The notes beneath the pieces are model-generated. The model saw only the letters and a list, made by a program, of their open reading frames with translations. It searched no databases and was not told where the DNA came from. A DNA stretch of 64,000 nt from NCBI RefSeq assembly GCF_010500815.1, contig NZ_JAAAMG010000001.1, positions 186,001 to 250,000 on the forward strand. The letters are read 5' to 3'. Origin of the DNA: Jiella pacifica (GTDB taxonomy: Bacteria; Pseudomonadota; Alphaproteobacteria; Rhizobiales; Rhizobiaceae). The position numbers and the translations under genes are program-made. This document shows positions 8,178-31,758 of the stretch, piece by piece (position 1 is the first letter of the stretch; every line of letters begins with the position of its first letter).

Positions 8178-8912
8178 ATGGTCGACCAGGCCGAACGGAC
8201 GGACAAGGGCGGCTTCGGCGAGACCGTCAAGGTCATCATCCAGGCGCTCCTCCTCGCGCTGGTCATCCGCACCTTCCTGTTCCAGCCCTTTTCCATCCCC
8301 TCCGGGTCGATGATGCCGACGCTGCTGGTCGGCGACTATCTGTTCGTCTCGAAATGGAGCTACGGCTTCTCGAAATACTCCTTTCCGTTCTCGCCGGACG
8401 TCTTCGACGGGCGCCTGATGTCCTTCGAGCCGAACCGCGGCGACGTCGTCGTCTTCCGCAAGCCGCACGAGGAGGAGGTCGACTACATCAAGCGCCTGAT
8501 CGGCCTGCCCGGCGATCACGTGCAGGTGCGCGAGGGCATCCTCTATCTGAACGGCAAGGCGGTTCCGCGGGAATCGGCCGGCGAGTTTACCTTCGATGAC
8601 GGCACGACGGCGGAGCAGTATCGCGAGACCCTGCCCAACGGCGCCTCCTACATCACGCTCGATCTGTCGCCGAACTCGCCGGGCGACAACACCCGCGAAT
8701 TCGTCGTGCCGCCGGACCACTACTTCATGATGGGCGACAATCGCGACAACTCGCTGGATAGCCGGTTCGACGTCGGCTACGTGCCGTTCGAGAACTTCGT
8801 CGGCAAGGCGCGGGTGATTTTCTTCTCGATCAAGGACGATGTCTCGCCGCTGGAAGTCTGGCAGTGGCCGAGCGATCTGCGGCCGAGCCGCTTCTTTACA
8901 TGGCTCGGGTAA
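8178..8912 (+). CDS. lepB: Signal peptidase I
   Basis: A 244-residue inner-membrane serine protease that cleaves Sec and Tat signal peptides on the periplasmic side. One N-terminal membrane helix (about 18-38) is followed by the catalytic Ser44 in PSGSMMPTL and the general-base Lys105 in DYIKRLIGLPGD. The MMGDNRDNSLDSRF box is present near the C-terminus. AAGAAGAGAGTGCG precedes the ATG. The gene overlaps rnc by 13 bases, which suggests coupled translation in a lepB-rnc-era-recO operon. Confidence 0.96.
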   Translation: MVDQAERTDKGGFGETVKVIIQALLLALVIRTFLFQPFSIPSGSMMPTLLVGDYLFVSKWSYGFSKYSFPFSPDVFDGRLMSFEPNRGDVVVFRKPHEEEVDYIKRLIGLPGDHVQVREGILYLNGKAVPRESAGEFTFDDGTTAEQYRETLPNGASYITLDLSPNSPGDNTREFVVPPDHYFMMGDNRDNSLDSRFDVGYVPFENFVGKARVIFFSIKDDVSPLEVWQWPSDLRPSRFFTWLG

Positions 8913-11466: not shown

Positions 11467-12696
11467 TTAAAGCGCCAGCGCCGGCCGCTCCACCGCTGTC
11501 TCCCGGATCGGCCAGTGCATTAGCGCTGCGAAGAGGCCGAGGATGACGCCGAGCCACCAGACCACGTCGTAGGTGCCGTAGATCTCGTAGAGATAGCCGC
11601 CAAGCCAGACGCCGAGGAACGAGCCGATCTGGTGCGAGAAGAACACCAGCCCGCCGAGCAGGCCGAGATATTTCGTGCCGAACATGATGGCGACGAGGGC
11701 ATTGGTCGGCGGGACGGTGGAAAGCCACAGAAGGCCCATGACGACGGCGAAGACGACGACGGTCGCGGGGGTGATCGGCGTCAGGAGGAACACCGTCACG
11801 ACGATCGAGCGGCCGATATAGATCCAGGCGAGGAAATGCGGCTTCGACACGCGCTGGCCGATGATGCCGGACGAAATCGAGCCGATGATGTTGAAGAAGC
11901 CGATCAGCGCCATGGAGATCACCGCCCATTTCGGCGCGATGCCGACATCGGCGAGGAAGGCCGGGAAATGCGCGGTGATGAAGGCGACCTGGAAGCCGCA
12001 GACGAAGAAGCCCGAGGTGAGCAGGAGGAAGCTGCGGGTTGCGAAGGCCTCGCGCAGGGCCGCACCCATGGTCTGCTCGATCTCGGGCTTGAGGTCGCGT
12101 CGGATCTGGCCGTTGCCCCTGAGGGCGAAGGAGAGCAGCGGGACGAGCAGCATGATGGCGGACAGGACGAGCAACGCGTCGGACCAGCCGTAGCTGTCGA
12201 TCAGGGCCTGCGAGAGCGGCGCGAACAGGAACATTCCGGCCGATCCCGCCGCCGTGCCGAGGCCGAAGACGAAGGAGCGCTGCTCGGCCGAGACCCGGCG
12301 GGCGAAAGCTGCCAGCACGATGCCGAAGGAGCCGGAGGCGACGCCGAGGCCGACGAGGACGCCGGAGCCGATGGTCAGGAAGAAGGGCGAGGGAGCGACG
12401 GCCGTCAGTGCCAGACCGGCGGCATAAAGGAGGCCGGAGAGGATCAGAACGCGCGCGGTGCCCCACTTGTCGGCGATGGCGCCGAAAAGCGGCTGCCCCG
12501 CGCCCCAGCAGAGGTTCTGGATGGCGATGGCGATGGCGAATTCGTCGCGGCTCCAGCCGGTGTCAATCAGCATCGGCAGCTGGAAGAAGCCGATCGCCGA
12601 GCGCGGACCGAAGGTCAGGAGCGCGATCAGGCAGCCGGCGCCGATAGCGATCAGGGCGGCGTTGTCGGGCCTGTCTCGGCTGGGAACGGCGCTCAT
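11467..12696 (-). CDS. MFS transporter, monocarboxylate/oxalate carrier-like
   Basis: A 409-residue major facilitator with about 12 membrane helices. The pattern GPRSAIGFFQLPMLID..GWSRDEFAIAIAIQNLCWG in helix 1-2 and the loop DKWGTARVLILSG fit the group that includes OxlT and monocarboxylate permeases. Substrate cannot be read from sequence. A good GAGG site precedes ATG 12696. It is divergent from panC, sharing about 200 bases that hold two CAATTG palindromes; divergence beside pantothenate genes is suggestive of a related precursor but that is only inference. Confidence 0.82.
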   Translation of the reverse strand: MSAVPSRDRPDNAALIAIGAGCLIALLTFGPRSAIGFFQLPMLIDTGWSRDEFAIAIAIQNLCWGAGQPLFGAIADKWGTARVLILSGLLYAAGLALTAVAPSPFFLTIGSGVLVGLGVASGSFGIVLAAFARRVSAEQRSFVFGLGTAAGSAGMFLFAPLSQALIDSYGWSDALLVLSAIMLLVPLLSFALRGNGQIRRDLKPEIEQTMGAALREAFATRSFLLLTSGFFVCGFQVAFITAHFPAFLADVGIAPKWAVISMALIGFFNIIGSISSGIIGQRVSKPHFLAWIYIGRSIVVTVFLLTPITPATVVVFAVVMGLLWLSTVPPTNALVAIMFGTKYLGLLGGLVFFSHQIGSFLGVWLGGYLYEIYGTYDVVWWLGVILGLFAALMHWPIRETAVERPALAL

Positions 12697-14622: not shown

Positions 14623-15087
14623 TTATTCGATCGAGACGATTTCCGCCTCGGTGGAGCCTGCCCGGACAGTGTCTCCCGCTTCCTTGCCGACGAGCTGGCG
14701 GGCGAGAGGCGACAGGTAGGAGATCAGGCCTTCCTCCGGGTCCGCCTCGTCGATCCCGACGATGCGGTAGGTCTGGACCTTGCCGTTCGGGCGCTCGATC
14801 GTCACGCTATGGCCGAACTGGACGACGTCGCTGTCGGCCTCGGGGACGATGAGCTGCGCGGTCGAGCGGCGGGCGCGCCAGTATCTGAGGTCGCGATTGA
14901 TCATCGCGACGGCGATCTTGTCGTTCGCCTCCCGCGCCGTTTCGAGCGATGCCTCGGCTTTGGCAATTTCCGCGTCGAGCATCTCGAGGCCCCGGTCGGT
15001 GACGAAGTTCGGTTCCGTCCCGAGATCGCGCTCCGGCAAGCCCTCGACCTGGTCCTCGTTCGGTTCCTTGACGAATGCGACGCTCAT
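14623..15087 (-). CDS. greA: GreA/GreB family transcription elongation factor
   Basis: A 154-residue member of the Gre family, which inserts its coiled coil into the RNA polymerase secondary channel and triggers cleavage of backtracked RNA. The N-terminal part (about 30-85) is a helical hairpin with NFVTDRGLEMLDAEI at its base and acidic residues near the tip region; the C-terminal FKBP-like part has FGHSVTIERPNGKVQTYRIVGIDEADPEEGLISYLSPLARQLVGKEAGDTV split over two blocks. It is not the most typical GreA of rhizobia, which starts differently, so this may be a second paralogue or a Gre-like regulator. GGAACGGTCG precedes the ATG. Confidence 0.75.
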   Translation of the reverse strand: MSVAFVKEPNEDQVEGLPERDLGTEPNFVTDRGLEMLDAEIAKAEASLETAREANDKIAVAMINRDLRYWRARRSTAQLIVPEADSDVVQFGHSVTIERPNGKVQTYRIVGIDEADPEEGLISYLSPLARQLVGKEAGDTVRAGSTEAEIVSIE

Positions 15088-15293
15088 CGACCGTTCCTCC
15101 CATGCAGGTCATTCTGCAACCAATGGTGACGATATAAGACGTGGAGGGCGGGCAAAACACCCGTCCCGTCGAAGCGATCGAGGCGAAGCGGGCCCTGGGG
15201 CGGCGTTGCCGGTCTGCTGACGGCGGCGTTGAGGATCGGATGGGGCCGCGGTGGTGGCATCCCGGGCGGGACGTTCGTCTGCGTTCGCGGCCG

Positions 15294-16046
15294 TCAGCCG
15301 CCGCTGCCTGTTTCGGCGAAGATCGCGGCCAGATCGATGTCGCCGAGGCGGCGGAAGGCGCCGGGCGGAAGGTCGGCGGGCAGGGCCAGGCCGCCGATCG
15401 ATTCCCGATGCAGCGCTTCGACATGGTTGCCGGCCGCCGCGAACATCCGGCGGACCTGATGGTAGCGGCCTTCATGGACTTGCAGGATCGCCTCCTGCGG
15501 GCCGAGGATCTCCAGCCTTGCCGGGGCGAGCGGCTTTTCCTCGCCCTCCAGCATCAAGGTGCCGGAGGCGAAGAGCTCGGCCTCGCCGCCGGTCAGCGGC
15601 CGGGCGAGACGGGCGCGGTAGCGCTTGGCGACATGGCGCTTCGGCGAGATGATCCGGTGCAGCAGGGCACCGTCGTCGGTCATCAGCAACAGGCCGGAGG
15701 TCTCCTTGTCGAGCCGGCCGACCGTCGAGATGGCGGGATCGCGCCGGCGCCAGCGGGTCGGCAGGAGATCGTAGACCAGCGGACCCGCCTCCTTGTGCGA
15801 GCAGGTGACGCCGAGCGGCTTGTTCAGCATCAGGGCGACGCCGGGCAACGGATCGAGGGCCTCGCCGTCGACCACCAGCCGGGTTTCTAGGTCGGGCCTC
15901 AGGGCGATCCGAGTGTCGGCCCGCAGGATCGGGGCGCCGTCGAGCAGGATGTGGCCGTTCCTGGCAAGCATCTGGATCTCGCGCCGCGAGGCGTAGCCGA
16001 GATTGGCCAAGAGCTTGTCGAGACGGGACGTCGGCGTCTTCGTCAC
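15294..16046 (-). CDS. rsuA: RsuA-family rRNA pseudouridine synthase
   Basis: A 250-residue pseudouridine synthase. An S4-like RNA-binding domain (about 5-60, RLDKLLANLGYASRREI) precedes the catalytic domain with the key block GRLDKETSGLLLMTDDG (catalytic Asp), then SPKRHVAKRYRARL and the EGRYHQVRRMFAAAGNHV block. By family it most likely modifies U516 of 16S rRNA, though RluE/F-like specificity cannot be excluded. The start is GTG 16046, which overlaps the stop of the upstream methyltransferase as GTGA; a longer open frame upstream is the shadow of that gene. Confidence 0.88.
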   Translation of the reverse strand: MTKTPTSRLDKLLANLGYASRREIQMLARNGHILLDGAPILRADTRIALRPDLETRLVVDGEALDPLPGVALMLNKPLGVTCSHKEAGPLVYDLLPTRWRRRDPAISTVGRLDKETSGLLLMTDDGALLHRIISPKRHVAKRYRARLARPLTGGEAELFASGTLMLEGEEKPLAPARLEILGPQEAILQVHEGRYHQVRRMFAAAGNHVEALHRESIGGLALPADLPPGAFRRLGDIDLAAIFAETGSGG

Positions 16047-17002
16047 TTGCGCGCCTCGAAGATCTTGTAGCCGGCCTCGTCCGCCAGCGTCGTCACGGTC
16101 CGGAACGTCGCGCGCAGCACCTCTTCGTAGGGCATGTGGCGGTTGGCGACGAGATAGAGCATGCCGGAGCGACGCAGCATCCGGCCGGCGGCGACGATGA
16201 AGGCCTGGCCGAGGCCGCGATCCTCGATCCCCTCGGCATGGAAGGGCGGATTGGAGACGACGAAGTCGAGATCGCCCAGCGCGGCCTGACGCGCGTCGGA
16301 CCACAGGAAGCGCGCGCGCTGATCGACGACGTTCACCTTCGAAGCCTCGACGGCGCGGCGGTCGATCTCGACGAGGGTGAGCGCCTCGACGCGCGGCGAT
16401 TTAAGGACGGTCAGGGACAGGATGCCGAGCCCCGCTCCGAGATCCGCGCCCTGTCCCGCGAGGGGCGGCAGATGGCGGCAGAGCAGCGAGGTGCCCGGAT
16501 CGACGCGATCCCACGAAAAGATGCCGGGCTGCGAGCGAAGGCAGGTCCCCTCCAGCGTGACGGGCGAGCCGGCCGCGATCGCCTCGGCGAGGCCGTGCGG
16601 CGCGTTCGGCTGGCGAACGGCGCAGATGCGGTGGCGGGCCTTGAAGTGCTCGGAAACCTCGCAGCCGAAGGCCTCCAGTTCGGCGCGCAGGCGTTGGCCG
16701 CCCTTGGCCTTGGGGGCCAACGCCGTCAACGAGCCGCCGGGGGTCAGCGCGCGCAGCGCATGGGCCAATACGAAGCGCCGCTCGATCGCGCCGGGAGGCG
16801 CGGCGACGACGATCTCGCTAAGCGTGCCGTCGGGCAGGTGCTCCAACGTCTCGGCGCCGGGGCGCAGCGGGGAGAGCTGCACGGCGCCCTCGGGCACGTC
16901 CGCGAGGTCGGGGGGCGGCGAGCCGTAGACGGCGCTGCGCGGCGGGGGAGAAGGATCGATCTGTGTCACCAAGTTGCCATAGCAGCTTTGGCCGGTTTTC
17001 AC
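16043..17002 (-). CDS. rsmC: RsmC/RlmG-type class I methyltransferase
   Basis: A 319-residue SAM-dependent methyltransferase. The second half carries GADLGAGLGILSL (SAM-binding loop), TLVEIDRRAVEASKVN and the catalytic NPPFH motif of guanine-N2 rRNA methyltransferases. The first half is a degenerate copy of the same fold, as in RsmC and RlmG. Substrate is therefore probably a guanine of 16S or 23S rRNA, without finer resolution. The start codon is GTG 17002. It overlaps the pseudouridine synthase by four bases, a sensible pairing of two rRNA modifiers. Confidence 0.82.
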   Translation of the reverse strand: MKTGQSCYGNLVTQIDPSPPPRSAVYGSPPPDLADVPEGAVQLSPLRPGAETLEHLPDGTLSEIVVAAPPGAIERRFVLAHALRALTPGGSLTALAPKAKGGQRLRAELEAFGCEVSEHFKARHRICAVRQPNAPHGLAEAIAAGSPVTLEGTCLRSQPGIFSWDRVDPGTSLLCRHLPPLAGQGADLGAGLGILSLTVLKSPRVEALTLVEIDRRAVEASKVNVVDQRARFLWSDARQAALGDLDFVVSNPPFHAEGIEDRGLGQAFIVAAGRMLRRSGMLYLVANRHMPYEEVLRATFRTVTTLADEAGYKIFEARK

Positions 17003-17063
17003 AGAGCGCCTGTCGCCGCCGATGGGCCGGAGCCGAATGCGCCGCGAGATTCGCCGCGCCGGC

Positions 17064-17816
17064 TCAGATCGCCCGCTGATTCACGCGCTTCGACAATTCG
17101 GCGGCCGTCTCGACGCGTTCCGAATAGCGATCGGTGAGGGCGGCCGAGCGGCCTCGCGTCATATAGGTGAACTTCGTCAGTTCCTCGCAGACGTCGACGA
17201 TCCGGGCGTAATAGGCCGACGGCTTCATCCGGCCGGCCTCGTCGAACTCGTTGAAGGCCTTCGCCACGGAGGACTGGTTGGGGATCGTCACCATCCGCAT
17301 CCAGCGGCCGAGGATGCGCAACTGGTTGACCGCGTTGAAGCTCTGGGAGCCGCCGCAGACCTGCATTACCGCCAGCGTTTTGCCCTGCGTCGGGCGGACG
17401 GCGCCTTCCGACAACGGGATCCAGTCGATCTGCGCCTTCATGATGCCGGTCATCGCCCCGTGCCGTTCCGGGCTGACCCAGACCATTCCCTCCGACCACT
17501 TCGCGAGATCGCGCAGCTCGGCGACCTTCGGATGATCGGTTCCGGCGGCGTCCGGCAGCGGCAGACCGCGCGGATCGAAGGTCTTCACCTCGCAGCCGAG
17601 GAAGGTCAGAAGCCGCCCCGCCTCCTCGGCGACGAAGCGCGAGAAGGAGCGCTCGCGCAGGGAGCCGTAGAGAGTGAGGATGCGGGGCGCATGGCCGGGA
17701 TCGCCCGGCGCCGCATAGAGCGCCGGGTCGACGGGCCGGAGGGCGCCGTCGACGAGATTGGGCAGGTCTGAAAGGGGCATGTGGGGCAAGCGATCGTTCG
17801 TTTTGATGAAGGGCAT
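17064..17816 (-). CDS. arsH: Arsenical resistance flavoprotein ArsH
   Basis: A 250-residue NADPH-dependent FMN flavoprotein. It has the FMN-binding block [21 protein letters not shown] split around residue 60, then [33 protein letters not shown] and [18 protein letters not shown], all characteristic of ArsH. The family oxidises trivalent organoarsenicals such as methylarsenite to less toxic pentavalent forms. Start choice is uncertain: ATG 17816 has a weak AGG-like site, while ATG 17780 (12 residues later) has none. It is the last gene of the arsenic operon, about 50 bases after arsC. Confidence 0.92.
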
Positions 17817-17866
17817 CTGGCCTGCCGCAGAGGTCGCACCGGTGGGGTGCGCGGCTGGCCGGCTCG

Positions 17867-18274
17867 TCAGTTGCGGGCCTGGACGACCTCGCCGTCTTCC
17901 TTGGTGAATGCACCGATCGCCGGGTTCGGCAGGATCTCCAGCACCTTTTCCGAGGGACGGCAGAGCCGGACGCCCTTGTCGGTGACGACGATCGGCCGGT
18001 TGATCAGGATGGGGTTTTCCATCATCGCCTGGAGCAGCTCCTCGTCGGAAAGCGCCGGGTCGTCGAGGCCGAGCTCGTGATAGGGCGTGCCCTTCTCGCG
18101 CAGCAGGTCGCGCGGCTTCATGCCCATCATGTCGAGAAGCTCGATCAGCGTCTCGCGGCTCGGCGGGGTCTTCAGATATTCGATCACCTGCGGCTCCTCG
18201 CCCGACTGGCGGATCATCGCCAGCGTGTTGCGCGAGGTGCCGCATTGCGGGTTGTGGTAGATCGTGACGGTCAT
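17867..18274 (-). CDS. arsC: Arsenate reductase, glutaredoxin-linked type
   Basis: A 135-residue ArsC of the thioredoxin-like fold, reducing arsenate to arsenite with glutathione and glutaredoxin. The catalytic Cys11 sits in [11 protein letters not shown]; the substrate-side blocks [12 protein letters not shown] and [14 protein letters not shown] are present. ATG 18274 follows a GAGAGCTC site. It lies 40 bases downstream of aqpS in the same operon, which also contains a second arsenate reductase of a different fold. Confidence 0.94.
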
Positions 18275-18314
18275 CGGGAGCTCTCTGTCGAGATGGTAGA
18301 TCGGGGGCGAAGGC

Positions 18315-19022
18315 TCAGTCGGCCGCACCGCGCAGCGCACCGCGGATGGTCAGCCGGGTGCCGGGATGCAGCAGCCAGCCAAATAGTGCGGTGGCGAGCA
18401 CCGCGCCAATGCATTCGGCGAGGATGAAGGCCGGAACGTCGAGCGGCCTGATGCCGGAGAAGGTGTCGGTGAAGGCCCGGGCGATGGCGACCGCCGGATT
18501 GGCGAAGCTCGTCGACGCGGTAAACCAGTAGGCGGCGGTGATGTAGAGGCCGACCAGCCAGGGGATCGCCGGGCCGTTGAACCTGAGGCCGCCGAGGATG
18601 ACGCCGACGAGGCCGAAGGTCGCGACGATCTCCGCCCACCACTGGGCGGGCCCTGTGCGCAGGTGGGCGGACAGGCCGAGGGCCGGAATTTCGAACATCA
18701 GGTGGGCGGCAACCGTGCCGGCGATGCCGCCGAGGATCTGGGCTGCGACGTAGAGGCCGGCCGAATGCCGGCCGATCGCCCCGCGGAGCAGCATCGCGAG
18801 CGTGACCGCCGGGTTGAAATGGGCGCCGGAGATCGGGCCGAGGATGGTGATCAGGACGACGAGGATCGCCCCCGTCGGCAGCGTGTTGCCGAGGAGGGCG
18901 AGGGCGGTGTCGTCTGTCAGCCGCTCGGCCATGATGCCCGAGCCGACCACCGTCGCGACGAGGAGCAATGTGCCGAGGGCCTCTGCGACGAGCCGGCGGG
19001 GAAGATCGAACTCGCGGCTCAC
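18315..19022 (-). CDS. aqpS: Aquaglyceroporin AqpS (arsenite channel)
   Basis: A 235-residue MIP family channel with six membrane helices and both half-helix motifs: NPA at 70-72 in [13 protein letters not shown] and NPA at 175-177 in [11 protein letters not shown] with Arg182 close to the filter position. In Sinorhizobium meliloti the homologous AqpS in an ars operon lets arsenite leave the cell by diffusion, taking the place of ArsB; the same role is inferred here because no ArsB or Acr3 gene is present. The start is GTG 19022, overlapping the upstream reductase stop as GTGA. Confidence 0.92.
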
Positions 19023-19549
19023 GCGACCTTGTTATCCGGATTTTCGGCGGCGCCGGTTCCGATGGCGTCGAGACGGCGCTTCAGGCTGATCTTGTCGAGG
19101 CTCCTGATCGGCAGGCTGCCGAAGATCGAGATCCGGTTGTTCATCAGGCGGAAGGTGTCGGCAAAGGCGAGGGCGCGCTCGGCCGGGGTGCCTTCTGCCT
19201 TGGCGGGGTCGGGAACGCCCCAATGGGCGCTCATCGGCTGGCCCGGCCAGACCGGGCAGGCCTCGCCCGCGGCATCGTCGCAGACGGTGAAGACGAAGTC
19301 GAGTTGCGGCGCGCCGGCCGTGCCCTCGGCGAACTCCTCCCAGGGTTTCGACCGCAGCCCCTCGACCGGAAAATTCAGCCGGCGCAACAGATCGAGCGTC
19401 AGCGGATGGATTTCGCCGCGCGGCTGGCTGCCGGCCGAAAAGGCGCGGAAGCGGGTGGAGAAGTCGCGGTTCATGATGCTTTCGGCGATGATCGAGCGGG
19501 CCGAATTGCCGGTGCACAGGAACAGGGCGTTGTAGTTTTCGTCGGCCAT
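19019..19549 (-). CDS. LMW phosphatase-type arsenate reductase
   Basis: A 176-residue protein of the low-molecular-weight tyrosine phosphatase fold. The P-loop CTGNSARS (12-19) matches the arsenate reductase form with Cys12 nucleophile, and [18 protein letters not shown] carries the further Cys residues of thioredoxin- or mycothiol-linked ArsC. The Asp-Pro general-acid loop reads [12 protein letters not shown] phosphatase role is less likely given the operon. GGGAGGAAGCC precedes ATG 19549. It is the first structural gene after arsR, about 25 bases away. Confidence 0.88.
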
Positions 19550-19574
19550 GGCTTCCTCCCTTTGGAACGATGTC

Positions 19575-19952
19575 TCAGCTGACGGTCTGGCGCCGCTTCG
19601 CTGTTTTCCCGGCATCCGGGCATCCTTCGTCGCATGACGGGAGGGCGCCGACGCCGCAGATCTCCGGATGTCCGTCGCAGCAGTCCTCGGCGAGGAAGGC
19701 GAGGAGGGCGCGCATCGCTTCGAAGCGCACGGCGTACCGAACCTGCCGGCCGTCGCGCCAGGAATGGACGAGGCCGGAGCGATCGAGGCCGGCGAGGTGA
19801 AAGCTCATCCGCGTTGGCATGATCGATAGCCGCTCGGCGATCTCGCCCGACGGCAGCCCGTTAGGCCCCGCCTTGACCAGCAGGCGAAACGCCCGGAGGC
19901 GGTCGGCATGGGCGAGGGCTGCGAGAGCGGAAACGGCGCGATGATCATCCAT
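19575..19952 (-). CDS. arsR: ArsR family arsenic-responsive repressor
   Basis: A 125-residue winged-helix repressor. The helix-turn-helix region is GLPSGEIAERLSIMPTRMSFHLAGLDRSGLV (split here by position 32-62) followed by the wing RDGRQVRYAV. The classical ELCVCDL sensor of the third helix is absent; instead five Cys cluster at the C-terminus (91, 92, 99, 107, 111), as in ArsR proteins that bind As(III) with C-terminal cysteines. ATG 19952 gives the family's usual length; there is no strong ribosome site. An inverted repeat lies 11 bases upstream and fits its own operator. Confidence 0.9.
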   Translation of the reverse strand: MDDHRAVSALAALAHADRLRAFRLLVKAGPNGLPSGEIAERLSIMPTRMSFHLAGLDRSGLVHSWRDGRQVRYAVRFEAMRALLAFLAEDCCDGHPEICGVGALPSCDEGCPDAGKTAKRRQTVS

Positions 19953-19963
19953 GGATACGAGTA

Positions 19964-19979
19964 TACAAGGATCATTGTA
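19964..19979 (-). promoter_or_regulatory. Candidate ArsR operator overlapping a -10 element
   Basis: TACAA (19964-19968) and TTGTA (19975-19979) form a perfect inverted repeat with six bases between. Read on the minus strand the outer arm is part of TACAAT, a good -10 hexamer for arsR, so a repressor bound here would block its promoter. The -35 region is weak. The position, just upstream of arsR, is what autoregulation would predict. Confidence 0.5.
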
Positions 19980-20352
19980 GAATTCAAGCCCGGACCCGAT
20001 TTTGGGGATTCGTGGCGTCGGGCTACGCGAGCCACCACGCCAACAGCAAAGGGGCCGGCACGGCCTGCGACGCTCGGGTCGGGGCGACGGTCGAGGGCGC
20101 CGCCGGACGCCGTTTGACGACGTCGGGGACCACGATCGGTGTCCCTCCCGGGGCGTGACGCGCGACACAGCGCGGCGCGATGAGCCGCGGTAGATCTGAT
20201 TCAGCAATCACCGGCGTCTGAAGCAAAGTCCCGTGCCCAGGCACCGGCTCCAGGCAGCGGGCTTGCCCGAGACACGCCGTTTTTCCGGCCGTTTCACCGA
20301 ATGCGGCCGGCCGGATCAGATTTCGTCAGCCCAATTGCAGAGGAACAGACCT
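19980..20352. other. Intergenic region between arsR and the PvcA-like gene
   Basis: About 370 bases separating the divergent arsenic operon from the isocyanide-synthase-like gene. Apart from the arsR operator at its edge I see no consensus promoter, terminator or RNA gene. Its length is unusual for this compact window, where divergent genes mostly share 90-270 bases. Confidence 0.45.
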
Positions 20353-21546
20353 ATGAACTATCTCGCACCGTCCTATATCGACGTCGGCCGTGATGGCGAG
20401 GCCATCAGCGATGCAAGGCTGAGCTTCCACGACGCATGGCCCGAGACCGATCCCAGGCTGCAGCCCCAGAAGACCCGGCCGACGGCACCGGAAGACGAGC
20501 AGATCCTCGCCGAATGCGTCCACATCCGCCGCCTGGATTGGGAGGCCTTCCAGAAGAAGACGGCCGGCAAGCCCGTTCACGAGCGCATCTTCGAGCTGAT
20601 CAATCATCGCACGATCCAGTTCAACTCCCGCAGCCGCTACGCCGAAAGCGAGATCTGGAAGGGTCGGATCAGGGAAGCCTGCGGGAAGGGCGAGCCGATC
20701 AGCATCCTGCTTCCCGTGTTCTGCGTCATCCGCAACCCGGTGAAACGGCTGCAGCTCACGGTGCCGACGACCGCCGAGGAGGTCTCGCTCCGGCACATGG
20801 CGAACATCGCCGAGATGATCCGCCAGTTGTACCCCGCGGGAGCCGTGTTCCATCTGGTCACCGACAGCACCTTCTACGGCCTGCCCTTCGGCGTGACCGC
20901 CGTCGAAGCGCTGCGCTACGTCGATCTTCTGCGTCAGATGGTCGAGACGATCGGCTGCGGCGACACCATCAAGCTCCACGACATGGCGCAGATCCTGTCC
21001 GGTCGCTTCGAGGAATTCCAGGCGAGCTTCGAGCACTGGTCCGCACGCTTCCACGACGACCCCTTCGCCGACGGCCTCAGCCCCGAGTCTCATGATGTCT
21101 GGCTCGCCAGCATGGCAGCGAGCATCAACACCGCCAAGCGCCAGCTGGGTTACGATGCGCTTCGCGAGCAGTTCGGCGGGACGGGCGCCGGGAAAGCGAC
21201 GGAAGAGCTCCATCGCCGGGCGCGGGCGGGCCTCGCCGAATACCGGGCGCTGAAGGCTGCCGCTGCTGACCTGCGCTGGGAGGAAGAATTCTTCCCCAGC
21301 GCGCTGCGCGCGACGATCCATACGAAGGGAATTCCGGTGCTCGGCCTGCGTCTCTACCCCGAGTACAAGCTCAGATCGAACCTGTTGCCCTACCATGGCA
21401 TCGGCGTCATCCGCTTCGGTCCGAAATACAAGCTGCACTACATGACGGTGGAACCCGAAATGTTCGTCTGCGGGCGCGACGAGTTCACCCGCATCACCGA
21501 TCGGGACGGCTACACCATGCACTATCTGGAAGACAGGCCCGCCTGA
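20353..21546 (+). CDS. PvcA/Dit1 (isocyanide synthase) family protein
   Basis: A 397-residue cytoplasmic protein that I read as a member of the DIT1/PvcA family, whose known members turn the amino group of Tyr or Trp into an isonitrile using ribulose 5-phosphate. Family-like blocks are: EIWKGRIREACGKGEPISIL-LPVF (101-123), RQLYPAGAVFHLVTDSTFYG (157-176), LHDMAQIL (208-215) and a C-terminal block ALRATIHTKGIPVLGLRL (317-334) followed by LPYHGIGVIRFG (345-356). The usual LPAFPxK stretch reads LPVFCVIRN here, so substrate or chemistry may differ. AGAGGAACAG precedes ATG 20353. No PvcB-type oxygenase, cytochrome P450 or NRPS gene is adjacent. Recognition is from motif pattern only. Confidence 0.7.
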   Translation: MNYLAPSYIDVGRDGEAISDARLSFHDAWPETDPRLQPQKTRPTAPEDEQILAECVHIRRLDWEAFQKKTAGKPVHERIFELINHRTIQFNSRSRYAESEIWKGRIREACGKGEPISILLPVFCVIRNPVKRLQLTVPTTAEEVSLRHMANIAEMIRQLYPAGAVFHLVTDSTFYGLPFGVTAVEALRYVDLLRQMVETIGCGDTIKLHDMAQILSGRFEEFQASFEHWSARFHDDPFADGLSPESHDVWLASMAASINTAKRQLGYDALREQFGGTGAGKATEELHRRARAGLAEYRALKAAAADLRWEEEFFPSALRATIHTKGIPVLGLRLYPEYKLRSNLLPYHGIGVIRFGPKYKLHYMTVEPEMFVCGRDEFTRITDRDGYTMHYLEDRPA

Positions 21547-21770
21547 GATAACGCCCAGAAGCCGGCGGTCAGTGCGGCCACCGGCTATCGGGCAGTGCGT
21601 CGAACGCCGGGGGGTGGCGCAGACCCGGAAGAACGATCAGCCCTGACCGGTTGATCGCGTTTTGCCGACGTATCCGGCCCCAGGTTCCTCACCTGCCCAC
21701 CGTATCGGCGTCTTTCGCATCGCTCATGCTCGACTGCACCCCGCCCAACAACTCCCGCGTCCAGTTGGTC

Positions 21771-23195
21771 CTACTCCTCGCCCGAAATATGCGGCGCCAC
21801 GTCGGGGCCGGCCATGCGGTTGTAGGCGTCGAGGGCGGCGACCTTGTAGGCCTCGGCGAGGGTGGGATAATTGAAGGTGTTCTCGACGAAATAGTCGAGC
21901 GTGCCCTTCAGGTTGAGGACGGCTTGGCCGATGTGGATCAACTCGGTGGCGCCCTCGCCGACGATGTGGCAGCCGAGCAGGCGGCGGGTCTTCAGGCTGA
22001 AGATCATCTTCAGCATGCCCTTGTCGAGGCCCATGATGTGGCCGCGCGAGGTCTCGCGGAAACGGGCGGTTCCGACCTCGTAGGGGATGTGGCGTTCGGC
22101 CACCTCGCGCTCGGTCATGCCGACCATCGACATTTCCGGCACCGAATAGATGCCGTAGGGAAAGTATTCCGGCGGCTCGACGGCGGAAAAGCCGAAGGCG
22201 TGGCAGGCGGCGACGCGGCCCTGTTCCATCGAGGTCGAGGCGAGGCTCGGAAAGCCGATGACGTCGCCGGCGGCATAGATGTGCGGCACCGCGGTCTGCA
22301 GCGTCTTGGGATCGACGGCGAGACGGCCGCGATGGTCGGTCGACAGGCCGCAGGCTTCGAGATTGAGCGCGCGGGTCGAACCCATGCGGCCGGCGGCGAA
22401 GAGCAGCATCTGCGCACGCACGTGGCCGCCGCCCTCGAACTCGATCTTGCAGTAGTCGTCCGGGGTCTTCGTCACCGTCTCGACCTTGTGGCCGAAGCGC
22501 AGGACCATGCCTGAGTCCCGCAGCTGGTAGGTGAAGTCCGACAGGAGTTCCTTGTCGAGGAAGTCGAGCATGGAATCGCGCGGCTCGATGAGCGTCACCT
22601 TCACGTCGAGGGCGTTGAAGATCGTCGCATATTCGACGCCGATGACGCCGGCGCCGATGACCGCGATCGAGCGCGGCAGGGTGGCGAGCTCGATGATCTC
22701 GTCCGAGTCGAGGACGGTCTTGCCGTCGAAGGGGATGTAGTCCGGCCGGAACGGGTGGGTGCCGGTGGCGATCAGGAAGTTGGCGCCGGTGAAATGGTGG
22801 ATGTCGCCTTCGTCGCCCGTGACCTCGATCGAATGGGCGTCGACGAAGCGCGCCTCGCCGCGCAGCACCGAGACGCGGTTGCGGGCGAACTGGTGTTCCA
22901 GCACCTCGACCTCGTGGCTGAGGGTGAGATGCAGGCGATCGCGCAGGTCGCTCGCGGTGATGTCCTTCTTGACCCGGTAGGCCCGGCCGTAGAAGCCGCG
23001 CTCGCGCCAGCCGGAGAGATTGAGAACCGTCTCGCGCAGGGTCTTCGACGGGATCGTGCCGGTATGAACTGAGACGCCGCCGACCTTCCGCCCCCGTTCG
23101 ACGACGAGGACGCTTCGCCCCAGCTTGGCGGCCTGGATGGCGGCTCGGCGGCCGGAGGGGCCTGAGCCGATGACGATGAAGTCGTAATGCTCCAC
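21771..23195 (-). CDS. sthA: Soluble pyridine nucleotide transhydrogenase
   Basis: A 474-residue FAD flavoprotein that transfers hydride between NADPH and NAD. The dinucleotide fold [17 protein letters not shown] opens the protein; the active-site region reads [17 protein letters not shown], lacking the redox Cys pair of lipoamide and glutathione reductases, which is the mark of SthA. A second nucleotide site [16 protein letters not shown] and the [17 protein letters not shown] block follow, then the dimerisation domain. GTG 23195 is preceded by CGAGGTCC. It is divergent from glutathione synthetase, both linked to cellular redox balance. Confidence 0.9.
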
Positions 23196-23461
23196 GATCG
23201 GACCTCGATTTGACGATTGTTGGTAAAGTCCGATCCCAGGTATTGCCGGAATGGCTTTTTGCAATGCAGCAAATACACCCTAACGCTTTTACGGGCCTGA
23301 CGGCCGGGATAACGGCGGCGGATCGTCGCAAGGCCACGCTGCGCTCACGGCGCAATGGGATGCGAGCGGTGACCGATCCATCAACGCGGCCGACATTGCC
23401 AGCGGTCCGGCGCGGCGCTACCACCACCGGCAACGATCACGATCTAAGCGGAGATGCCGCC
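23196..23461. other. Divergent promoter region of sthA and gshB
   Basis: A 266-base non-coding stretch between two redox genes read in opposite directions. It holds TTTGC-N6-GCAAA (23258-23273), a small inverted repeat that could be an operator, and AT-richer sequence around 23215-23280. No consensus promoter could be fixed. Confidence 0.4.
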
Positions 23462-24400
23462 ATGGCGCTCGATGTCGCCGTCCAGATGGACCACGTCTCG
23501 TCGATTTCGATCAAGGGCGATTCGACCTTCGCCATGTGCCTCGAAGCGCAGCGGCGCGGGCACTCGCTGTTCCACTATACGCCCGAGCGGCTGTCGCTGC
23601 GCGACGGCAGGGTGACGGTGCGCGGCGAGGTGATGGAACTGCGCGAGGAGGAGGGCAGCCATTTCACCCTCGGCCCTTCGGAAAAGCGCGATCTCGGCGA
23701 CTCGGACGTCGTCCTGTTGCGCCAGGATCCGCCCTTCGACATGGCCTACATCACGGCGACCCACATCCTCGAGCGGGTGCAGCCGAAGACGCTCGTGGTC
23801 AACGATCCGGCGCAGGTGCGAAATGCGCCGGAAAAGATCTTCGTCACCGAATTTCCCGACCTGATGCCCGAGACGCTGATCACCAAGGACATGGCCGAGG
23901 TGATGGAGTTCCGCGCCGAGTTCGGCGATATCATCATGAAGCCGCTCTACGGCAATGGCGGGGCGGGCGTCTTCCACATCACCCCGCAGGACCGCAACCT
24001 CACCTCGTTCTTCGAGACCTTCGGCCTGCTCTACCGTGAGCCGTTCATCGTCCAGCGCTACCTCAAGGAGGTGCGCCAGGGTGACAAGCGCATCATCCTC
24101 GTCGACGGCGAGGTCGCCGGTGCGATCAATCGGGTCCCGGCCGAGACCGACGCACGCTCCAACATGCATGTCGGCGGCGTCGCTACCGCCACCGAGCTGA
24201 CGGCGCGCGAACGGGAAATCTGCGCGCGGATCGGGCCGGCGCTGAAGGAGCGCAACCTCCTCTTCGTCGGCATCGACGTCATCGGTGGGCTGCTCACCGA
24301 GATCAACGTCACGTCGCCGACGGGCATCCGCGAGGTCTCGCGCTTCGGCGGCAACGACATCGCGGCGATGATCTGGGACGCGATCGAGGCGCGGCTCTGA
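23462..24400 (+). CDS. gshB: Glutathione synthetase
   Basis: A 312-residue ATP-grasp ligase adding glycine to gamma-glutamylcysteine. The N-terminal domain has [20 protein letters not shown] and [20 protein letters not shown]; the ATP-grasp part has [50 protein letters not shown] and the metal-binding [12 protein letters not shown] at the end. These are diagnostic of bacterial GshB. GGAGATGCC precedes ATG 23462; a longer frame to 23210 lacks homology. Confidence 0.96.
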
Positions 24401-24438
24401 GGCGACGCCGGGCCGATGCCGGCATTCTTCCGGCAGAC

Positions 24439-24483
24439 GGCGCCTTCAGTCTCCGTTCAACATGAACGGCAGATGAAGGCGCC
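24439..24483. repeat. Nested double palindrome upstream of the SH3-domain gene
   Basis: Outer arms GGCGCCTTCA (24439-24448) and TGAAGGCGCC (24474-24483) match perfectly over ten bases. Inside them a second perfect stem, CCGTTCA (24453-24459) and TGAACGG (24463-24469), closes on a three-base loop. Together they fold into one long hairpin with a small internal loop. No T-run follows, so it could end gshB transcription inefficiently, or act as a leader or operator element for the next gene. Confidence 0.6.
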
Positions 24484-24576
24484 GTTACGGAACCGTTCGG
24501 ACGCACTATGTTTTCCTGCAGTCGAAACGGTCGGGAGCCCCCGACCAGGGATTTTTCGGCAGGAGGAACACCCATC

Positions 24577-25350
24577 ATGAAGAAGACGCTTCTCGCAGCG
24601 GCGGCGCTGGCGAGCGCCGTCGCGCTCCCCGCAGGCTCTGCCCATGCCTCGGAAAAGGCCATCGCGACCACCAACGTCAATTTGCGCGCCGGGCCCTCGA
24701 CGGACTATCCGGTCGTCGACGTTCTCGTCGCCGGCGAGGGGCTGAGGGTGTTCGGCTGCCTGCAGACCCGCTCCTGGTGCGACGTGCGGTTCCGCGGCCA
24801 GCGTGGCTGGATCTCGGCCAACTACATCGCACTGACCGGCGGCAACTATTCCGGCCGTCACGACTTCGACCCCTATTCCGCGCCGGTGATCACCTTCTCG
24901 GTCGACAATTATTGGGGCGACCACTATCGCAGCCGCAACTTCTACCGCGACCGCGATCGCTTCCGGGGGCATCGGGGCCCGGATTGGGATCGTGGCGATC
25001 GCCGGGATCGCGATCATCGCGGCCCGGATCGCCACCGAGGCGACCGCGGCCCGGATCGCGATTGGGGTGACCGCGACGGCCGCGGCCCTCACCGGGGGCC
25101 TGACTACGGCGACCGCGGGCGGGATCGCGACCGTGGCGACAGGCGTCCCGATTTCCGTGATCGTGATCGTGATCGCGGGCCGGACCGCGCGGACTTCGAC
25201 CGTCCCGGCCGCGGGCCGGACCGTGGCGATTTCGACCGCCGCGGCCGTGGGGACCATGGTGACCGCAATCGCGGGGGCCGCGACCATGACCGCGGCGGCC
25301 GCGGCGGAAACGACGGCAAGCCGCCGGTCCCGCTCTATCGTGTCGACTGA
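24577..25350 (+). CDS. Secreted SH3-domain protein with Arg/Asp/Gly-rich tail
   Basis: A 257-residue exported protein. A Sec signal peptide (about 1-24, cleavage after AHA) is followed by a bacterial SH3 domain (about 27-85) starting TTNVNLRAGPSTDYPVV and ending GQRGWISANYI, usually a ligand-binding module for cell-wall or surface partners. From about 125 to 250 the sequence is almost only Arg, Asp and Gly in DRD/DRG/RGD-like repeats, so it is likely disordered and highly charged. AGGAGGAACACC gives a strong ribosome site before ATG 24577. It stands alone between a nested palindrome and a strong terminator. Function unknown. Confidence 0.82.
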   Translation: MKKTLLAAAALASAVALPAGSAHASEKAIATTNVNLRAGPSTDYPVVDVLVAGEGLRVFGCLQTRSWCDVRFRGQRGWISANYIALTGGNYSGRHDFDPYSAPVITFSVDNYWGDHYRSRNFYRDRDRFRGHRGPDWDRGDRRDRDHRGPDRHRGDRGPDRDWGDRDGRGPHRGPDYGDRGRDRDRGDRRPDFRDRDRDRGPDRADFDRPGRGPDRGDFDRRGRGDHGDRNRGGRDHDRGGRGGNDGKPPVPLYRVD

Positions 25351-25418
25351 CGGGGAAGCGGGTTCGCATGGCTGACGGAGCGGCGCCGCAGGTGCCCATG
25401 CGTCAGGAAATGCTGCGC

Positions 25419-25452
25419 CGGCGGCCGGATCGAAGATCCGGCCGCCGCTTTT
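25419..25452 (+). terminator. Rho-independent terminator after the SH3-domain gene
   Basis: Thirteen perfectly paired bases (25419-25431 with 25435-25447) around a GAA loop, followed by CTTTT. The core arm reads GGCGGCCGGATC. It lies about 70 bases after the stop codon at 25350. Confidence 0.8.
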
Positions 25453-25736
25453 GCGACTGGTCGTCCGCCACGCGCCACGGTCGCCATCCTGCGAGGGACG
25501 AGATCGTCCATCGTCTGCGGACTGATGCGGACCAGAAGCGAATTCGGCGAAAGCCGGGCGAATTTCGGTCTCCGCGGCCATTGCGAACAGCTGCACCTTG
25601 GCGCAGGCATGTCGGCTTGCTTGGAGATGGCCCGGCGCTGTGGTAAGCGGCACGTGAGCGGCCAGCCACGTACGCTTTCTCGCGCCTGGCTCCGGCCCCG
25701 CCGCCGAGCGACCATCCGCCAGAGGAGAGTGACACC
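25453..25736. other. Leader/promoter region of glyA
   Basis: About 280 bases before glyA. Short open frames exist on both strands but have no conserved features or ribosome sites. I do not recognise a riboswitch or a consensus promoter here. Confidence 0.4.
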
Positions 25737-27053
25737 ATGAGCCAGGCCCCAAGCGCCGACGCCAAGAGCGATTTCTCGGGTTTCTTCACGACCCCCATTT
25801 CTGAGAGCGATCCGGACGTCTTCTCCGCCATGGAGAAGGAGCTCGGCCGCCAGCGCCACGAAATCGAGTTGATCGCCTCGGAGAACATCGTCTCGCGCGC
25901 CGTCATGGAAGCCCAGGGCTCCGTCCTCACCAACAAATATGCCGAGGGCTATCCCGGCCGGCGCTACTATGGCGGCTGCCAGTATGTCGACATCGTCGAG
26001 GAACTGGCGATCGACCGGGTGAAGACCCTGTTCGGCTGCGAATACGCCAACGTCCAGGCCAATTCCGGCAGCCAGGCCAACCAGGCGGTGCTGCTGGCGC
26101 TGTCGAAGCCCGGCGCGACGCTGCTCGGCATGAGCCTCGATGCCGGCGGCCATCTGACCCATGGCGCCAAGCCCAACCTCTCCGGCCGCTGGTTCAACGC
26201 CGTGCAGTACGGTCTCGACACCTCGACCGGCCTGATCGACTACGACCAGGTCGAGAGCTTGGCGATCGATACCAAGCCGGAGGTGATCGTCGCCGGCGGC
26301 TCGGCCTATTCGCGGCAGATCGACTTCGCGCGCTTCCGCGCCATCGCCGACAAGGTCGGCGCCTATCTCTGGGTCGACATGGCGCATTTCGCCGGGCTCG
26401 TCGCGGCCGGCCATCATCCGAGCCCGTTCCCGCATGCCCACGTCGCCACCTCGACGACCCACAAGACCCTGCGCGGCCCGCGCGGCGGCATCGTTCTGAC
26501 CAACGACGCGGAGATCGCCAAGAAGATCAATTCCGCGATCTTCCCGGGCCTGCAGGGTGGCCCGCTGATGCATGTCATCGCCGGTAAGGCGGTGGCCTTC
26601 GGCGAGGCGCTGCAGCCGGGCTTCAAGTCCTACATCGCCGCCGTCTGCGAGAATGCCAAGGTTCTGGCCGAGACGCTGCGGGAGGGCGGCCTCGACATCG
26701 TCTCCGGCGGCACCGACACCCATCTGATGCTGGTCGACCTGCGCCCGATGAACCTCACCGGCAAGGCGTCGGAAAAGGCGCTCGGCCGGGCGAACGTCAC
26801 CTGCAACAAGAACGGCGTGCCGAACGACCCGCAGAAGCCGATGATCACGTCGGGCATTCGGCTCGGCACCCCGGCGGCGACCAGCCGCGGCTTCGGCACC
26901 GCCGAATTCCGCGAGGTCGGCAAGCTGATCCTCGAAGTGCTGGACAGCCTGCGCAAGTCCAATTCGGAGGACGGCAACCCCGAGGTCGAGGCGTCGGTGA
27001 AGGAGCGCGTCATCGCGCTGACGGACCGTTTCCCGATCTATCAGGCGATCTGA
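25737..27053 (+). CDS. glyA: Serine hydroxymethyltransferase
   Basis: A 438-residue PLP enzyme converting serine and tetrahydrofolate to glycine and 5,10-methylene-tetrahydrofolate, the main source of one-carbon units. The PLP-binding Lys is in [33 protein letters not shown] and [17 protein letters not shown] are the substrate and dimer-interface blocks; [13 protein letters not shown] precedes the Lys. AGAGGAGAG lies before the ATG. A terminator separates it from nrdR. Confidence 0.97.
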
Positions 27054-30013: not shown

Positions 30014-30526
30014 ATGGTGGAATCCGCGCAGCCGCAACGGCCGGCGGCGAAGGCCGCCAACAAGCGGGGCGCAGCGCGCCTCGCCGCCGTCCAGGCACTG
30101 TATCAGATGGAGGTCGGCGGTTCGACCTTGATGGAAACCGTCGCCGAGTACGAATCCTTCCGGCTCGGCCGGGAGATCGACGGCGAGCAGTATCGCGATG
30201 CCGATGCTGCCTGGTTTCGCGACGTCGTCTCGGGCGTCGTGCGTCAGCAGACGGCAATCGACCCGCTGATCCACAAGGCGCTGCCGACCGACTGGCCGCT
30301 CGCCCGCCTCGACACGACGTTGCGGGCGCTGATGCGCGCCGGCGTCTTCGAAATCCGTTCGCGGCTGGACGTTCCGGTCGCAGTCATCATCAACGAATAT
30401 GTCGACGTGGCGCGGGCTTTCTACACCGAGGAGGAGCCGCGGCTGGTGAACGCCGTGCTCGACCGGATCGCCAAGGAACAACGCCCCGAGGCGGGCGGAA
30501 ACGCCGCAAGGCGCGAACGGCCGTGA
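30014..30526 (+). CDS. nusB: Transcription antitermination factor NusB
   Basis: A 170-residue RNA-binding protein that forms a complex with ribosomal protein S10 (NusE) on the boxA of rRNA operons. The helical core shows [19 protein letters not shown], then [29 protein letters not shown] and the conserved [29 protein letters not shown], cut here into two blocks. The short basic N-terminus is usual. The stop overlaps a GTG start of the following transporter gene. Confidence 0.95.
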
Positions 30527-31758
30527 CCGTCGCGGCGGAGCCGGTCGGCGGATTGGGGATCAGGACCGCGCGGCGTAATGCCCTCGTCCTGGCTGCCGCC
30601 CAGGCCATCGTCGGCTCGGCCGCCCCGGTGGCGATCTCCACCGGCGGCCTCGCTGGCACCTGGCTGCTGCTCGAGGACAAGTCGCTGGCGACGCTGCCGG
30701 TCACCGGCTTCAACGTCGGCGTCGCGCTCGGTGCGCTGCCGGCGGCGGCGCTGATGCGGGCGATCGGGCGGCGGCTCGGCTTTTCCTCCGGGGCGCTGGT
30801 CGTTTCGATCGGCGGGATGCTTGCCGCCTTCGCGCTGCTGGCCCAGTCCTTCTGGTTCTTCGTCGCGTCGATGCTGCTGGTCGGCTGCGGCAACGCCTTC
30901 ACCCAGCAATATCGCTTCGCCGCGACTGACGGTGCGCCGCGCGACTATCAGGCGCGGGCGATCTCCGTCGTTTTGGCCGGCGGCATGTTCGCCGCGGTCA
31001 TCGGCCCGCAGATGGTCAACTTCACCACCGGCCTTTTCCGGCCGGCGGAATTTGCCGGCGCCTTCTTCGGCGTCTCGATCCTCGGCTTTGTCGGTGTCTT
31101 CGTGCTGTCCCGGCTGAAGGTGGTCGACGCGGCCGTGGCCGAGCCGGGCGAGGCGCCGTCCGCTCCCGCCCGCCCGCTCTCCCAGATCCTCGTCCAGCCG
31201 CGTTTCCTGACGGCGCTTCTGTGCGGCGTCGGCAGCTACGCGATGATGAGCTTCGTCATGACCGGCGCGCCGCTCGCCATCGTCGCCTGCGGCCACCCCC
31301 AGGAGATCGGCTTCTTCGGCATCCAGTGGCACGTCATGGCGATGTTCGGGCCGAGCTTCTTCACCGGTCGGCTGATCGCCCGCTATGGCAAGGAGCGGGT
31401 CATCGCGGCGGGGCTCCTGGCGCTTCTTGCCAGCTTCGGGGTGTTCCTGTCGGGCATCTCCGTCTGGCAGTTCTGGCTCGGCCTCGTTCTTCTCGGTCTC
31501 GGCTGGAACTTCGGCTTCATTGGCGCGACGGCGATGGTCGCCGACACCTACCGGCCTTCCGAGAAGGGCAAGACGCAAGGCTTTCACGATCTCGCTCTGT
31601 TCACGACCGTGGCCTTTTCCTCGTTCATGTCGGGACGGGTCTTCGTCACCAGCGGCTGGGAGACGATGAACCTCGTCGCCCTGCCGATCGCCCTCGTCTG
31701 CATGGCGGCGATCGCCCTGGAGGCGCGCCGCGCCGGCGCCCGGCTGCTTCCGGGCTGA
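30523..31758 (+). CDS. MFS transporter coupled to nusB
   Basis: A 411-residue major facilitator, about 12 helices, substrate unknown. Features: [18 protein letters not shown] in helix 1, the loop after helix 2 [15 protein letters not shown], and the second-half equivalent [14 protein letters not shown]; the motif [23 protein letters not shown] near helix 11 is shared with a subgroup of bacterial MFS proteins of unassigned function. The GTG start overlaps the nusB stop as GTGA, so it is translated as part of the riboflavin-nusB operon. A longer upstream frame is only the shadow of nusB and ribH. Confidence 0.82.

Follow-up and report, generated by a model that had tools for sequence, protein, structure and literature searches.

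Isocyanide Synthases and Related Systems

Isocyanide synthases (ICS) have been studied mainly in gene clusters that also encode tailoring enzymes. According to PMC7949033, the known members of the family attach a carbon of ribulose-5-phosphate to the nitrogen of the amino group of L-tryptophan or L-tyrosine. The position of yeast Dit1 is disputed, its loss being not rescued by PvcA (PMC7345447), and a paper of 2026 reports a stable isonitrile made by a fungus that encodes a Dit1-like protein (PMC13005658). The patchy spread of the family is described in PMC5974471 and PMC10153163, and the latter text mentions standalone ICS genes as existing and not yet fully elucidated.

The gene considered here lies at positions 20353..21546 of the forward strand of the window, which is the whole stretch of 64,000 nucleotides of Jiella pacifica DNA that was analysed. 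Its product shares with PvcA and IsnA, the L-Tyr or L-Trp isonitrile synthases (PDB entries 3e59, 9dh4 and 9dhm), the superfamily, the order of the sequence blocks and the positions LPxF, NxxK, E, GA, D, RxxIH, G and PxH. In contrast to these enzymes, it has CVIRNPVKR for FPxKSPN, IHTK for IHPQ and TDS for SDG, its matched part starts only at about residue 76–106, it scores far below the PvcA equivalog cut-off, and the gene has no oxygenase in its scanned neighbourhood. Fungal Dit1, connected with formyl-tyrosine or isocyano-tyrosine and compared here by description only, is likewise a single-domain protein with the same Pfam domain; it is paired with the P450 Dit2, as PMC10153163 states, whereas no P450 was found in the scanned neighbourhood of the window gene. 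The homologue on plasmid pNP7-7 of Moraxella osloensis has the same signature motifs at 31–35% identity and differs in being interrupted by IS5 and in having downstream transporter genes, of the MFS and (as a partial gene) EamA types. The ScoE-type non-heme iron isonitrile enzymes are alike only in the proposed product class: their mechanism is different and involves a single glycine adduct and iron/2-oxoglutarate (2OG), according to PMC7949033, whereas PF05141 is the only Pfam match of the window protein at E <= 0.01. No description of the subfamily was found in the titles and abstract beginnings of the best matches of a literature search, the coverage of which excludes most subscription journals.

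Gene and Protein

The open reading frame starts with ATG at 20353, is preceded by a Shine–Dalgarno sequence AGAGGA at 20339..20344 (+), ends with TGA at 21546 and encodes 397 amino acids; AGGA was found ahead of the start in all seven loci. The sequence-only reading had assigned the protein to the DIT1/PvcA family by several blocks, and all of them were found in the translation, which contains RIREACGKGEPISILLP, YPAGAVFHLVTDS, IHTKGIPVLGLRL, PYHGIGV and LPVFCVIRN. The family membership was borne out by the profile search, in which PF05141 (DIT1_PvcA) gave 53 bits against a gathering score of 26.4 (E 4.5e-14, best stretch at residues 106–220). This was the only Pfam family matched by the window protein at E <= 0.01, and at the same limit it was matched by 7/7 orthologues. 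The assignment stands at the superfamily level, but not at the level of PvcA, where the NCBIfam equivalog TyIsonSynPvcA gave 29.5 bits, below its cut-off of 600. Among sequences of the PDB, the best match was 3e59 (PvcA; E 5.8e-7), followed by the isonitrile synthases 9dh4 and 9dhm; these three of the four matches are of the PvcA/IsnA type, and the fourth had E 0.18. The genome itself contains no second match to the protein (E <= 0.001) and no other match to PF05141.

All seven orthologues have open frames free of inner stops, and the pairwise dN/dS values were 0.08–0.26 in 21/21 pairs (a simple counting method, with some dS above 1), therefore the protein is under constraint. It is extremely improbable, in our opinion, that the gene is a remnant of an earlier biosynthetic cluster, inactive or in decay, as might be thought from the absence of a common neighbour in five of the seven loci, the patchy spread and the Moraxella copy split by IS5: besides the intact frames and the low dN/dS values, the promoter module is kept in six of the seven carriers, which speaks against decay.

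AlphaFold models obtained with only seven similar sequences as input had a mean pLDDT of 44.0 (45.6 for a trimmed version), and their confident parts were limited to portions of the region around residues 60–210. In a Foldseek search with the first model, all 8 matches at E <= 0.001 were PvcA or PIsnA chains, with query TM-scores of 0.28–0.31 at a pLDDT of 44. This result supports a predicted isocyanide-synthase fold, short of proof. No paper was found in a literature search on the name PIsnA. Neither a missing DIT1_PvcA match nor a different fold, the two outcomes named in the sequence-only reading as speaking against the assignment, did arise, the fold part of this statement coming from a low-confidence model.

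Subfamily Signature

The orthologues were compared with ten canonical ICS proteins, three of them from the sampled genomes and the others from seven of 13 matched plasmid records, one (L050) being N-terminally incomplete. The word "canonical" means here that a protein scores or aligns as PvcA-like; it was classed by sequence, and chemistry was not part of the criterion. The hhalign comparison gave a probability of 98.2 and E 6.1e-14 over residues 76–396, with a less sure alignment in the middle part (about residues 210–310). Inside the aligned stretch, 70 columns were near-invariant in the canonical set (at least 90% one residue); 24 of them are identical in all seven orthologues, 39 are different, another 5 vary among the orthologues, and the remaining 2 coincide with gaps.

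The residues retained in 7/7 orthologues include K131, E142, G163, A164, D171, Y189, R263, R319, H323, P346 and H348 along with others, and the positions of the conserved RxxIH and PxH motifs (R319, I322-H323, P346 and H348) are present throughout. The canonical residues K67, S68, P69, G76, D80, G113, D118, R233, S234, W237, K262, W274 and W278 are replaced, and canonical Q256 corresponds to K325 of the subfamily. In terms of motifs, the lysine of FPxK, the aspartate of PD, the glycine of SDG and the tryptophan of TPWH are lost. The choice of catalytic residues among the conserved ones would be provisional, as it is drawn from the alignment.

One change is found at codons 120–132 (20710..20748, +), where the subfamily signature LPVFCVIRNPVKR, invariant in 7/7 orthologues, stands for LP[AG]FPxKSPNxxKV; the columns of canonical Lys67, Ser68 and Pro69 are replaced here, and Lys73 is retained as K131. 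The canonical LP[AG]FPxKSPN motif is absent, and LPVFCVIRN is read in its place in all seven orthologues. Also invariant across the seven is LPVFCVIRNPVKRLQLTVPT. Three further sites bear the mark of the subfamily: Asp-Ser at codons 171–172 (20863..20868, +; 7/7) for canonical Asp-Gly; IHTK at codons 322–325 (21316..21327, +; 7/7) for canonical IHPQ, with the histidine kept, glutamine changed to lysine and IHQK in Moraxella; and PYHG at codons 346–349 (21388..21399, +) for canonical PWH[GSA]. The Moraxella copy, at about 31% identity, reads IPIFCVIGN where the orthologues have LPVFCVIRN, and carries IPIFCVIGNRAKR at the position of the whole signature. Its two pieces, which were searched apart, retain QFNSRxR, P-I-FCVI-x-N-xx-KR, AEExSL, DSxFY, RATIHxK, LGLRxYPEYK and LLPYHG. 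The alteration of LPAFPxK to LPVFCVIRN, noticed earlier in the single window protein, was thus confirmed; given the invariance in seven orthologues and the retention in Moraxella, it is a fixed feature of the subfamily and not a sporadic one.

The heavy turnover of canonical conserved positions could be expected of a non-catalytic member of the superfamily, such as a protein of sensing or ligand binding built on the ICS fold. We consider such a function very improbable, as the motifs contain many charged or histidine residues that do not vary among the seven proteins, and several of these recur in the Moraxella pieces.

In the tree, the 7 orthologues separate from the 10 canonical ICS proteins with support of 100/98, the branch being very long and saturated, so that the tree is informative on the depth of the clade and not on its exact placement. 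The best reading of the sequence comparisons is that the subfamily would represent a deep clade of its own within the ICS superfamily, rare and travelling, of an enzyme kind already known.

Distribution and Probable Mobility

Orthologues were found in 4/10 genomes of the genus Jiella, including that of the window, and in 3/45 genomes of Roseibium (the genus of G653), which makes 3/87 genomes of its family. Wider samples added little to these: 4/397 genomes of the order matched, all of them carriers counted already; 2/385 genomes of the class were the own genome and one with a weak distant match (L011); and 3/398 genomes of the phylum were two carriers and one with a canonical ICS. The six orthologous loci (L005–L010), obtained by scanning contigs, encode proteins with 77–88% identity over nearly the full length. 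PF05141 was matched above its cut-off in 5/398 genomes of the phylum, two of which are carriers of the subfamily, and in none of the 14 control genomes. The plasmid search for the gene gave one record only, pNP7-7 of Moraxella osloensis (NZ_CP024450.1), where the copy of about 31–35% identity is split by IS5 (L012, 6759–8795). No match was found among 50,697 phage records (E <= 1e-5), and scans of viral contigs, each with two short peptide patterns, gave none for this gene and none for canonical ICS. Two additional superfamily-like proteins, strongly divergent and with motifs of a different kind (WGKGxxF..., GWAACKNK...), are encoded at L023 (G130:C115) and L011 (G129:C184); the former scores under the PF05141 cut-off, the latter is merely a weak match to the window protein, and both may perhaps represent other uncharted branches.

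The surroundings of the gene differ in all seven loci, and between the loci outside the window a few weak matches (27–33%) link other flanking ORFs. As was shown by blastn, the DNA common to the Jiella loci begins some 200 nt ahead of the ATG, in or close to the palindrome described below, and extends to about the stop codon; L005 and L006 have two additional short matches. When Roseibium loci were compared, the common DNA was in most cases limited to the gene; in addition, L009 and L010 have a separate match upstream, and L008 and L010 have the HAD gene in common. Mobility by recombination may be supposed. Transposon ends and a tRNA site were considered as marks of transfer and rejected: there is no tRNA within 15000–27000 of the window, and the repeats around the gene are short, chance-like and not convincing. 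In L008 (394–9573, Rhodobacterales bacterium BW5), the gene adjoins ORFs that, judging from their translations, seem to be of the bacteriochlorophyll and carotenoid kind.

Upstream Region

The palindrome GTGACGCGCGACACA (20155..20169, +) is a probable operator, and its pattern GTGWYGYNNGACACA is present upstream of the gene in six of the seven carriers, L008 being the one locus that lacks it. In scans of whole genomes, G000 and G007 had a single match each to the pattern, both times at the ICS-like gene. Over seven genomes there were 20 matches, 6 of them at this gene, against 2 matches of the reversed control pattern; in five genomes the pattern misses this gene or also occurs elsewhere.

A −10-like element TAGATCT (20191..20197, +; pattern TA[CG]AT[CG]T) stands at a constant spacing to the palindrome, 36 nt from the palindrome start in the four Jiella loci and 37 nt in two of Roseibium, and was not seen in L008. 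The distance from this element to the ATG is variable (102 to 163 nt), and L009 exceeds L010 by 57 nt in this respect. A sigma-70 consensus scan did not list a promoter at TAGATCT. Provided that the −10-like element is correctly assigned, the centre of the palindrome falls near −41.5. Class II activators bind near −41.5, and the arrangement of these elements suggests that the gene may be regulated by an activator at the palindrome. A riboswitch or another known RNA in the leader was rejected, as a search of 17000–24500 against Rfam gave no match at E <= 1.

Candidate Partners

Neither a P450 nor a 2OG-dioxygenase nor an NRPS was found among 26 window proteins, the gene product itself included, encoded at 8178–31755 (Pfam, E limits 0.01 and 1e-10); in the other loci, selected neighbours were scanned for families. 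The claim that the gene is an orphan, with no oxygenase, P450, NRPS or transporter nearby, thus held for the enzymes but not for the transporters: MFS proteins are encoded at 11467–12696 (−) and 30523–31758 (+), about 8–9 kb off, and the arsenic operon itself includes a gene for a MIP channel. Similarly, the gene stands alone in the window, but a HAD hydrolase gene is next to it in two of the three Roseibium loci, one of which also has a gene for an EamA transporter. No biosynthetic partner is common to the seven loci.

The HAD genes are situated 89 nt (L008) and 76 nt (L010) downstream and are mutually 58% identical. They resemble phosphoglycolate phosphatase, with a score below the equivalog cut-off of NCBIfam (161 vs 180). 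At E <= 1e-40, this gene was found in 2 of 20 genomes (7 carriers and 13 non-carriers), both times beside the ICS-like gene, and no match at this limit was found in Roseibium G780 or in any of the four Jiella carriers. The EamA gene is downstream in L010, and the Moraxella copy is followed by an MFS gene and a partial or short EamA gene. As a partner, EamA is a weak candidate and was rejected: homologues at E <= 1e-40 occur in 3/7 carriers, namely in all three Roseibium and in none of the four Jiella, and in 4/13 non-carriers.

Possible Chemistry

By analogy with the described enzymes, the protein would be a stand-alone enzyme of the ICS superfamily, most likely working like PvcA and IsnA. An amine, probably that of an amino acid, would be condensed with a carbonyl carbon of a pentulose phosphate, the adduct would be fragmented, and the carbon left on the nitrogen would form an isonitrile or, on hydration of the latter, an N-formyl amine. 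The gene would move with its own promoter and operator as a cassette, usually without common partners. The amine substrate, the sugar-phosphate reaction and the isonitrile or formamide end product are all supposed here from what is described for related enzymes. Taken as a whole, the reading of a deep clade of the superfamily, transferred as gene and promoter and forming an isonitrile or N-formyl metabolite by adding a carbon from a sugar phosphate to an amine, seems to us somewhat favoured by the data.

As 39 of the 70 canonical columns are different, the chemistry of PvcA is not to be assumed. The loss of the first lysine with the second one kept, the new lysine of IHxK and the changed aromatic columns suggest a different amine or a different break-up of the adduct, and in view of the changed lysines and aromatic columns neither the substrate nor the complete mechanism of PvcA should be taken for granted. 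It is possible, with a lower probability, that the same fold serves a changed chemistry, either as a Dit1-like maker of an N-formyl compound or in another reaction of an amine with a sugar phosphate (imine formation, an Amadori-type reaction or C–C cleavage), the HAD protein clearing a phosphorylated by-product. The exchange of the FPxK lysine for that of IHxK is consistent with such a change, as is the HAD-type gene, found close downstream in two of three Roseibium loci and absent from the 18 other genomes at E <= 1e-40; a debated precedent is given by Dit1, not replaced by PvcA in yeast, and by the isonitrile reported from the fungus that encodes a Dit1-like protein (PMC7345447; PMC13005658). 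However, the canonical histidine, arginine, aspartate and glutamate and one lysine are retained, and five of the seven carriers, including that of the window, have no HAD gene at E <= 1e-40.

A more detailed scheme is rather doubtful: a travelling one-gene cassette, in which the catalytic lysine would have shifted from FPxK to IHxK, a changed break-up of the adduct would yield a new product (an isonitrile, an N-formyl compound or one derived from the sugar), the HAD phosphatase would be optional, and a dedicated activator site would occur nowhere else in this genome.

Whatever the product, this is a small testable system, with one gene, one product and no pathway to rebuild. The clade could widen the known substrate range of the isocyanide-synthase reaction, help to settle which conserved residues of ICS matter, and inform the debate on whether Dit1-type enzymes give isonitriles or formamides.

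Arsenic Genes and the Variable Site

In the window, the genes follow in the order arsH-arsC-MIP-LMWP arsC-arsR, the ICS-like gene, a sthA-like gene and gshB, where the name sthA was read from a pyridine-nucleotide-disulphide oxidoreductase. The called start of arsR (19952) and that of the gene (20353) are divergent and stand 400 bases apart, in agreement with the divergent region described in the sequence-only reading. The neighbours were compared over 10 kb on each side of the gene with six orthologous loci of ±10 kb: among 23 called genes of the window, only the ICS-like gene has matches there (tblastn, E <= 1e-5), and the ars genes of the window have a match in none of the six.

In the three other Jiella carriers (G006, G007 and G009), the ICS-like gene and sthA are on different contigs. 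In G002, G004, G007, G008 and G009, the ars genes stand beside sthA, and the gap of 1.2–3.8 kb is filled by other genes, which were named from their translations: G002 has an M78-like peptidase/repressor-like gene, with an NCBIfam match below the cut-off; G004 has a large sensor-like ORF together with an AraC-type regulator; and there are aldo-keto-reductase-like and LysR-like genes in G007, membrane-protein ORFs in G008 and a fasciclin-like ORF in G009. The contig of G003 stops 1.1 kb from sthA, and G001, G005 and G006 were viewed in short loci only. The interval from arsR to sthA (19953–21770 of the window; L061 and L063–L066) is differently filled in each of the five relatives. Since other genes fill this gap and the ICS-like gene occurs elsewhere, the ars side borders a variable site that is occupied by chance, and the arsenic neighbours of the ICS-like gene are probably a coincidence. 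An arsenic operon bordering a variable site calls for caution in inferring function from neighbours.

The link to the adjacent ars genes, put forward earlier as speculation, was therefore rejected, since no window neighbour recurs in the six loci and five relatives carry other genes in the gap. It is hardly conceivable that the gene is a functional member of the arsenic operon, concerned with the handling of metals or metalloids: only the position of the two divergent starts speaks for it, whereas in G007 and G009 the gene and the ars-gap-sthA arrangement are on separate contigs and the upstream palindrome moves with the gene and not with ars.

Some other features of these regions may be mentioned. 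In L058, from a relative that has no ICS-like gene, an ORF at 491–982 (−) adjoining arsR encodes, judging from its translation, an M78/ImmA-like peptidase, and its match to the NCBIfam spr1629 family is far below the cut-off. The ars operon of the window contains two kinds of arsenate-reductase-like genes, at 17867–18274 (−) and 19019–19549 (−); the glutaredoxin-type ArsC scores above its cut-off and the LMW-phosphatase-type protein below that of thioredoxin-type ArsC. Downstream of gshB, the gene at 24577–25350 (+) encodes a protein that has an SH3 domain, a probable signal peptide and a long repetitive tail rich in Arg, Asp and Gly.
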